Part shown: positions 57,231-58,399 of the stretch, piece after piece
Numbering within the stretch: position 1 is the first letter of the stretch
Layout: each line of letters opens with the position of its first letter
Assembly: GCF_040546685.1 (NCBI RefSeq)
Contig: NZ_JBEPOH010000001.1
Coordinates: 1,860,001-1,924,000, forward strand
DNA length: 64,000 bases
Origin: Variovorax sp. OAS795
GTDB taxonomy: Bacteria > Pseudomonadota > Gammaproteobacteria > Burkholderiales > Burkholderiaceae_C
Direction of reading: 5' to 3'
Made by a program: the position numbers and the translations under genes
The notes under the pieces: model-generated
Told to the model about the DNA's origin: nothing
What the model saw: the letters and a program-made list of their open reading frames with translations, nothing else
The model's database searches: none

Positions 57231-58208
57231 CTACATCAGCAGGTGTTCGCCCGCGTTGTCGCCGCCCAGCGTGACGTAGTTGACCTTGCGGATGTCCATC
57301 AGCGTGCGGCCGCCGGCGTAGCTGATGGAGCTCTGCACGTCCTGCTCCATCTCGACCAGCGTGTCGGCCAGCTTGCCCTTGATCGGCTCGAGGATGCGCT
57401 TGCCTTCGACGTGCTTGTACTCGCCCTTGTTGAAGTCGCTGGCGGAGCCGTAGTACTCCTTGAAGAGCGCACCATCGACTTCGACCGTGCGCCCCGGCGA
57501 CTCCTCGTGGCCCGCGAACAGCGAGCCGATCATCACCATCGAGGCGCCGAAGCGCACGCTCTTGGCAATGTCGCCGTGGTCGCGGATGCCGCCGTCGGCA
57601 ATGATCGGCTTGGTGGCCACGCGCGCGCACCACTTGAGCGCGCTGAGTTGCCAGCCCCCGGTGCCGAAGCCGGTCTTGAGCTTGGTGATGCAGACCTTGC
57701 CCGGGCCGATGCCGACCTTGGTGGCGTCCGCGCCCCAGTTTTCCAGGTCGATCACCGCTTCAGGCGTGCCAACGTTGCCGGCAATCACGAACGAGGCGGG
57801 CAGCTTCTGCTTGAGGTAGCCGATCATGTTCTTCACGCTGTCGGCATGGCCGTGCGCAATGTCGATGGTGATGTACTCGGGCACGAGGCCCTCGGCCGCG
57901 AGCTGGTCGACCGTCTCGTAGTCCGGCTTCTTGACGCCCAGCGAGATCGAGGCGAACACGCCCTTGCCGTGCATCTCCCTGACGAACTTCACGTTGTCCA
58001 GGTCGAAGCGGTGCATCACATAGAAGTAGCCGTTCTGCGCGAGCCAGAGGCAGATCGGCTCGTCGACCACGGTCTTCATGTTGGCCGGCACCACCGGCAG
58101 CCGGAAGCTGCGCGCGCCCAGCGTCACGCTGGCGTCGCATTCCGATCGGCTTTCCACGCGGCACTTGCGCGGCAGCAAAAGGATGTTGTCGTAGTCGAAA
58201 ATCTGCAT
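57231..58208 (-). CDS. guaC: GMP reductase
   Basis: A 325-residue IMPDH/GMPR-family barrel enzyme that reductively deaminates GMP to IMP with [21 protein letters not shown] is the standard start. The catalytic loop [17 protein letters not shown] contains the active cysteine, and [18 protein letters not shown] is the phosphate-binding part. There are no CBS domains, which separates it from IMP dehydrogenase. The gene is preceded on its own strand by the structured leader at 58209-58399. Confidence 0.95.
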
Positions 58209-58399
58209 GAGAAACCAAGCTCCTGTGAAGGTGCGCCGAGGAACGATTTCCGTCGGCGTGGGCGCTTGGTCCCGCCCCGGTCATCGATGCCCATGCAGGC
58301 ATAAAAAAACCGGGCGACAAGAATCTTGGGCCCGGTAACTGATTATAGGGATGCGCCGAATCGCCTTCTTCCGGGCTTTCGTATAAACCTTATTCGGCG
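58209..58399 (-). promoter_or_regulatory. Candidate attenuator/riboswitch leader of guaC
   Basis: Reading the minus strand: a stem CGCCGAAT/ATTCGGCG (58399-58392 with 58361-58354) encloses a 30-base loop containing GCCCGG (58376-58371). A terminator-like hairpin ACCGGGC...GCCCGGT (58336-58330 with 58315-58309, plus an inner CAAG/CTTG stem) then runs into seven T residues. The loop GCCCGG could pair with the terminator 5' arm as an antiterminator. A further nested hairpin (58270-58264 with 58220-58214; inner 58259-58253 with 58239-58233) lies just before the start and flanks the GGAG ribosome binding site. No minus-strand gene lies upstream to need a terminator. A -10-like TATAAT is also present at 58347-58342, which is a competing interpretation. 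Confidence 0.45.
58302..58336 (-). terminator. Intrinsic terminator in the guaC leader
   Basis: Minus-strand hairpin ACCGGGC / GCCCGGT with an inner CAAG/CTTG stem, directly followed by TTTTTTT. It lies 94 bases before the guaC start. There is no T run on the plus strand, so it does not serve the opposite direction. Confidence 0.75.

Follow-up and report, generated by a model that had tools for sequence, protein, structure and literature searches.

In yeast, the IMD2 gene, whose product is an enzyme of the GMP pathway, reportedly combines a GTP-tied choice of transcription start with a short, terminated product, and the pyrG gene of Bacillus subtilis is said to be controlled by reiterative attenuation, which involves a G-run at the start of the transcript and a terminator in the leader. 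According to the passages of the bacterial literature on which we draw, RNA may start 6-9 nt downstream of the -10 box, a purine that follows a pyrimidine is preferred and the initiating nucleotide matters (PMC5730371), and the order of preference among start positions is 7>8>9 (PMC2613000); the choice of start by NTP level is also in print, in passages of the same kind (PMC5730371, PMC7818426). For pyrC and pyrD, the start-switching genes of E. coli and Salmonella, the corresponding passage describes how low GTP/CTP shifts the start to CTP, with the result that a hairpin then blocks the ribosome (PMC7818426).

We describe here the leader of the guaC gene in a 64,000-nt stretch of DNA from Variovorax sp. 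OAS795 (contig NZ_JBEPOH010000001.1), the whole of which was analysed and is referred to below as the window. The gene that the leader would control (57231..58208, minus strand), recognised from its open reading frame and from profile matches, encodes a GMP reductase of 325 amino acids that scores 592.8 bits against NF003966 (cut-off 344) and 539.5 bits against TIGR01306 (cut-off 465.65). The next named gene upstream encodes azurin and sits on the plus strand, in agreement with a preliminary description of this DNA, which had noted that no gene precedes guaC on its own strand. Some 30-40 nt ahead of the guaC -10 box, at 58376-58389, there is a block like GGTCTATACGAAAG or GGGTTATACGAAG, which is also present in L003, L011, L017, L025, L082-L085, L087, L088 and L106, and its plus-strand TATAAA, TATAGA or TATAAC is perhaps the -10 box of a divergent promoter (that of azurin in the window).

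The ATG of guaC is at 58208, and a hairpin with a run of T lies approximately 100 bases before it. Read along the minus strand, the order of elements is TATAAT, CAGTT, ACCGGGCCCAAGATTCTTGTCGCCCGGT, T7, a spacer, ACCGGGGCGGGACC, CCAAGCGCCC, a spacer with a dyad, AGGAGCTTGG and the ATG. The conserved unit is wider than the one first delineated and comprises positions 58347-58303 together with 58281-58260 and 58224-58215, and matches to this DNA at the level of the genus mostly start near the TATAAT and stop at the U run. Judged by its sequence, the leader has the appearance of an on/off switch not described before, one that could serve to sense purine nucleotides. We propose tentatively, and with somewhat less than an even chance of being right, that it is an attenuator close to the promoter, where the terminator forms or fails to form according to which transcription start is used.

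The leader is widespread in the host family. Among guaC loci retrieved through the protein only, of which the 80 best out of 559 were taken, ACCGGG[C/A]CCAAG lies upstream in 79/80, as does the spaced pattern TANNNT-N5-ACCGGG; the contig of the 80th, L070, ends too early. A covariance model built from 44 leaders matches 239/399 sampled genomes of the family, in 98 of the 141 sampled genera, whereas samples drawn from the order and from the class gave matches in 14/399 genomes (11 of them in the host family) and 4/274 genomes (3 in the host family). Each matching genome holds a single match, and the 67 fetched matches that were checked all run into the start of guaC, so that a regulon was rejected. 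Weak matches in G601, G672 and G1011, which are outside the 67, are taken as chance, and no close guaC match was found in G601 or G672. The leader in G604, a genome of another family (assembly 89% complete, 6% contamination), is real and stands before guaC. When 20 family genomes without a model match were checked for the protein, 11 had guaC and 9 had only a match of ~40% identity, the level expected of the related GuaB. Five of the 11 (G069, in diverged form, G071, G084, G092 and G106) have a visible hairpin with the usual spacing from a -10 box; in G089 other parts are retained, G100 is incomplete, and no trace of the leader appears in G081, G095, G103 or G105. A more generic pattern that does not require CCGGG (TANAAT-N5-ACC-N17..25-GGTTTTT) occurs at 81 places in 81/150 family genomes as compared to 0 in the reversed control, and 80/81 of these places are guaC leaders by sequence, G087 being the exception. 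In 274 genomes of the class it occurs at 30 places, 3 of which are guaC leaders from the family, while the other 27 are to be set against 26 in the reversed control. One locus carries a discordant label: L033 (CALQKH020000015.1), from a MAG labelled Akkermansia muciniphila, encodes a GuaC 91% identical to that of the window behind the same leader, and the label of the bin is probably wrong or the bin contaminated.

For the comparisons that follow, overlapping public contigs and sampled genomes were pooled into a set of 250 leaders (248 distinct in their first 90 nt), and counts over this set are not independent, since the leaders are related and their sources overlap. L202 and L206, which are GuaB loci caught by the motif, were dropped before counting, and L183, L187, L196, L304, L306, L340 and L341 are outside the set. 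One mismatch in ACCGGG[CA][CT]CA was tolerated by the motif finder, and where a short stretch had no recognised start codon a TANNNT had to lie within 11 nt, at no set distance; because of the tolerated mismatch, the invariance of individual letters among the 250 arises in part by selection.

The leader keeps a fixed spacing. The end of the TANNNT is separated from ACCGGG by exactly 5 nt in 250/250 pooled leaders, with 33 different 5-mers in between, while the length of the hairpin (26-29), the distance from the U-tract to the downstream segment called d below (13-94) and the distance from A6 to the ATG (49-220) all vary. The TATAAT that the preliminary description had mentioned as a possible promoter (58342..58347, minus strand) keeps this spacing in the window and has the invariant position of a predicted -10 box. 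As this distance is fixed while the others are not, the probable start of the guaC RNA is the hairpin foot, either A6 (58336) or, three bases on, G9 (58333). Across the four positions A6 C7 C8 G9 (58333..58336, minus strand) the letters are kept in 250, 250, 249 and 250 of the 250 leaders, respectively, and a C precedes A6 in 242/250 leaders although it is outside the stem, which gives A6 the same pyrimidine-purine step as G9. By start position and by the pyrimidine-purine rule, A6 and G9 would be the likely starts and C7 and C8 poor ones. The place of CCGG, 7-10 nt after the -10 box, is also kept in 250/250, its letters varying in L267, L185 and L297. No clear -35 box was found by the window scan or among the pooled leaders, and no published transcription start maps for the host family were found in a limited literature search.

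The hairpin itself (P1, ACCGGGCCCAAGATTCTTGTCGCCCGGT, 58309..58336, minus strand) runs directly into T7 (58303..58309), the first T of which pairs with A6, and the terminator hairpin with seven U residues claimed before guaC is thus present and strongly conserved. As a 28-nt element read from A6 it is predicted at -14.8 kcal/mol, an energy reached by 1/200 shuffles, and with its tail (35 nt) at -14.9 kcal/mol, reached by 0/200, whereas the fold of the whole leader is unremarkable (z -1.37, with 23/200 shuffles equally good). RNAalifold recovers P1 as the sole structure in the first 44 leaders. A simple terminator scan of the window left the hairpin unflagged, and the same scan gave no promoter. 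At least 5 T within 8 nt follow the hairpin in 244/250 leaders, so that a G+C-rich stem passing directly into a U-tract in a gene leader, the usual mark of an intrinsic terminator, is what the family carries; termination itself is predicted from this arrangement. The pairs of P1, counted from the foot over the 250 leaders, are A-U in 250, C-G in 250, C-G in 247, G-C in 247, G-C in 239 and G-C in 203. Where they change it is mostly the 3' arm that drifts, to a U that keeps a G-U pair (8 and 45 cases at the last two pairs), and the 5' arm hardly changes; ACCG is kept even where its partner has been lost (L185). The covariation check suggested for this leader gave a divided answer. Standard counting over the first 44 leaders finds no two-sided change in P1 or in the Shine-Dalgarno helix (P3), since their 5' strands hardly vary, but two-sided changes do occur in L297 (ACCGAGC/GCUCGGU) and in the inner stem of L340 (CTC/GAG), and there are compensatory changes in the alternative helix discussed below.

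These features also bear on two other explanations of the palindrome. ACCGGG and CCCGGT lie directly after the -10 box and might be the half-sites of a repressor overlapping the start, a DNA operator; we consider this very improbable, as the distance between the arms varies with the hairpin (26-29), changes in the 3' arm mostly preserve an RNA G-U pair, and a U-tract follows nearly always. Chance pairing in GC-rich DNA, against which the preliminary description had itself warned, is a negligible explanation for a hairpin and downstream segments conserved in so many genera. The warning is justified for a second dyad, a stem of 8 bp whose 30-base loop contains GCCCGG. This dyad is present as described (58399-58392 with 58361-58354, minus strand) and had been put forward as the source of an antiterminator. 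An 8-bp dyad with such a loop appears in 3.2% of shuffled segments of equal length and 66 times in the window, and at the same place the longest perfect stem reaches 6 bp in one of 11 relatives and 5 bp in six others, while four have none. The -10 box would place the start of the RNA at or just inside the hairpin, so that the upstream stem would be absent from the transcript altogether. Preceding the TATAAT, lacking in relatives and of a common type, this stem leaves the GCCCGG with no standing as an antiterminator; the upstream antiterminator was rejected, and we judge the whole element (58354..58399) to be outside the device. What endures of the suggestion of an attenuation-type leader is the conserved hairpin, the U run and a competing fold; the antiterminator that it named does not, the actual competitor of the 5' arm being downstream of the U run.

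On the proposed attenuator, drawn by analogy with pyrC, RNA polymerase would have two start sites to choose from, A6 (6 nt downstream of the -10 box) and G9. An RNA begun at A6 (or C7) would open with ACC, which can pair with the GGU directly before the U-tract; the full P1 would then form and transcription would stop at about +34. High GTP would favour the start at G9, whose RNA lacks the ACC, and the stem, deprived of the three pairs next to the U-tract, would let the polymerase read through, after which the freed 3' arm would pair with a downstream segment (c) in a helix that we call P2. Read-through would allow GMP reductase to be made and to drain GMP to IMP, and a rise in GMP reductase at high GTP appears biologically sensible in sign. 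Predicted energies are consistent with this order of events: the median for P1 is -16.5 kcal/mol from A6 as compared to -10.9 from G9 (249 leaders, ~8 of which folded into a longer stem), and in the window P1 from G9 falls to -9.1 kcal/mol. The weakening from a downstream purine start is of the pyrC type, but any trim of 3 nt from a stem would weaken it, and two considerations weigh against start choice, namely that a terminator ending at about +34 is unusually close to the start and that the G9 stem retains -9 to -11 kcal/mol. L183, whose hairpin begins at G9, is for that reason unfit for the GTP logic. It is possible, with somewhat more doubt than attaches to the attenuator as such, that the leader represents a bacterial RNA switch not described before, an intrinsic terminator initiated at +1 in which the first nucleotide (A6 or G9) would set termination some 34 nt on, acting as a sensor of GTP:ATP that needs no protein and that is in most species joined to a second, possibly ligand-binding, fold governing ribosome access through the same 5' strand.

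The candidate for the alternative helix is segment c (ACCGGGGCGGGACC, 58268..58281, minus strand), and on pairing energies it is the competitor of the P1 5' arm for the 3' arm (segment b). Over 75 distinct classes of b, own b:c pairings average -14.4 kcal/mol as compared to -12.2 (sd 0.24) when partners are permuted, with 0/5000 permutations as strong, and over all 216 distinct b:c pairs the values are -13.5 and -12.1, with 0/2000 as strong; these statistics ignore kinship among the leaders. An alternative structure that excludes the terminator is thus present as P2. In the predicted ensembles of 224/250 leaders, P1 and P2 have probabilities of 0.63 and 0.31 from A6 and of 0.24 and 0.63 from G9, P1 exceeding 0.5 in 149 leaders from A6 as against 67 from G9, and P2 in 64 as against 138. 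In the window P2 is favoured even from A6 (P1 0.15, P2 0.78), so that P1 would have to act during transcription, before equilibrium is reached. P2 for its part cannot act as a classical antiterminator because it is made after the U-tract. A stem at the 5' terminus that protects the mRNA or lowers expression constitutively, without regulation, would agree with a start predicted at the foot of the stem and with leaders that contain little else; the conserved U-tract and the competing helix would be superfluous to it, and we think it improbable.

Next comes segment d (CCAAGCGCCC, 58260..58269, minus strand), near-invariant and recognised in 242/250 leaders, whose CCAAGC is complementary, in the alignment, to the Shine-Dalgarno region (AGGAGCTTGG, 58215..58224, minus strand); it can pair with that region (P3) and perhaps with the 5' GGGC (P0). 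Segments c and d and the Shine-Dalgarno helix make up a second module of most collected leaders, which on our reading would add a layer of control at translation. The cells of P3 are paired in 95.1% of cases in 44 leaders, without covariation, and the helix is significant by shuffling in only 118/235 leaders. No release of the Shine-Dalgarno region by the G9 start is seen in the ensemble, its predicted access going from 0.18 (A6) to 0.16 (G9).

The same module invites a different explanation, in which the aptamer of a metabolite-binding riboswitch consists of P2 with CCAAG (segment a) and YCAAGC (segment d) on its flanks and GGGC:GCYC (P0) as its closing helix; the ligand, naturally a purine, would free the Shine-Dalgarno region from d, and P1 would be the competing ligand-free fold. 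Several observations favour it. The invariance of the leader extends past ACCG to CCCAA and d, beyond what pairing needs, and the CAA in a accompanies d in 242/242 leaders as compared to 3/8 leaders without d (Fisher 7e-9, which among related sequences is not a true probability), or 3/15 once 7 more diverged leaders are added by hand. Segments b and c co-vary, and P1 and P2 are close in energy. L185 (from G089), which has lost the P1 3' arm and the U-tract, retains segments a and d with a replacement hairpin between them, as well as the -10 distance and a perfect GAGC:GCUC. The invariance of CCCAA and d is unexplained by start choice and counts, together with L183 and the leaders without an intact U-tract, toward the riboswitch. 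Among the proposed stems, P2 coevolves, P3 does not covary, and P0 shows, with few exceptions, C/U changes that leave the pairing with G intact. On the other side, the ensemble prediction gives P0 a probability close to 0, its pairing is broken in L040 and L044, some leaders hold the promoter, P1 and U-tract without c or d, and Rfam, searched at gathering score with the window and 10 related loci, returned only tRNA, which also upholds the earlier remark that the classical purine riboswitch is not matched. Such an aptamer, moreover, cannot control termination at P1, as its 3' half is made after the polymerase passes the U-tract. We regard the riboswitch as unlikely, and as the main rival of start choice. 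Below the gathering score, hya (17.2 bits, E 1.5), ncS16 (13.5 bits, E 4.6) and GlsR4 (12 bits, E 8.6) were rejected as chance-level matches far short of their gathering scores.

An RNA-binding protein or chaperone that has P1 and P2 as its switch and acts on either the repeated CCAAG sites or the U-tract would account for two near-identical conserved strands (CCAAG and YCAAGC) and the U-tract, and would leave the short leaders, which have no second site, without explanation; we rate this as quite unlikely, if marginally less so than the constitutive stem. A leader-peptide attenuator was rejected, for an ATG-initiated ORF of at least 5 codons is closed inside the leader in only 18/241 leaders, a count restricted to ATG starts and to ORFs that end before guaC.

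The two modules of the leader can be lost separately. L147, L171/L343, L187, L302, L304, L306, L308, L340, L341 and others have a promoter, hairpin and U-tract but no c or d that can be recognised, and, reciprocally, d is present and the U-tract missing or broken in L044, L148, L185, L195 and L288; the tract is also missing or broken in L198, which has no d. Termination cannot be the whole function of the leader, given those without an intact U-tract. L185 is naturally suited to testing the second module. In a second clade, made up of L152, L155, L157-L159 and other TCAAGCGCTCGCAGCC leaders, d is extended to GTCAAGCGCTCGCAGCC; a conserved GCACTGC...CAACGC comes after it, often together with a weak Shine-Dalgarno sequence. 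L012 and L020 share a similar GC-rich insertion of ~85 nt between d and the Shine-Dalgarno region (GCCGCCGGGCCGCC...GTGGCGAAGCACACG...AGTGGC...AGCCGGGGGGC) that resembles a dispersed repeat.

Judging by titles and abstracts, with subscription papers and supplements outside the scope, the literature on guaC regulation does not describe this leader; guaC is absent from the main text of a 50-genome survey and has 0 occurrences in the portions available of two earlier surveys. A leader that 98/141 sampled genera carry and that no Rfam family matches is, whatever its mechanism, a new element of RNA-based regulation. If start choice is confirmed as its basis, nucleotide-sensed initiation would reach beyond pyrimidine genes and translational control to include termination and a purine gene, RNA polymerase alone would be the sensor, the setting of GMP reductase in much of a bacterial family would be explained, and a short, easily built test system would be at hand for termination very near the start.

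Each of the known systems shares some features with the guaC leader and lacks others. The HMP-PP (thiS) riboswitch is reported to be, likewise, very small and to have its sensor inside the terminator, but in the guaC leader conservation of the terminator is confined to the 5' strand and the loop varies. With the purine riboswitch family the leader has in common a purine gene and alternative folds, and it differs in drawing no match from Rfam at gathering score. The B. subtilis pyrG leader likewise has a G-run at the start (GGGC in guaC) and a leader terminator, which for guaC is predicted; the guaC terminator would begin at the start itself and would need no extra G-tract. The yeast IMD2 system differs in its RNA polymerase II, its other terminator machinery and the step catalysed by its enzyme. 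In pyrC of E. coli K-12, TATCCT (assigned here as the -10 box) is followed by TTGTGT and CCGGC, which can pair with GCCGGAG before the start codon. The two leaders are alike in having a CCGG-led 5' hairpin with CCGG 7-10 nt after the -10 box, in serving an enzyme of nucleotide metabolism, and in having alternative starts, predicted in the case of guaC, at the same place. They differ in gene, lineage and downstream switch, and A6 replaces T6. The pyrC hairpin includes GGAG near the start codon, whereas P1 of guaC abuts a U-tract and the Shine-Dalgarno region lies elsewhere; because P1 does not cover that region, we have not filed the guaC leader as a member of the pyrC type.
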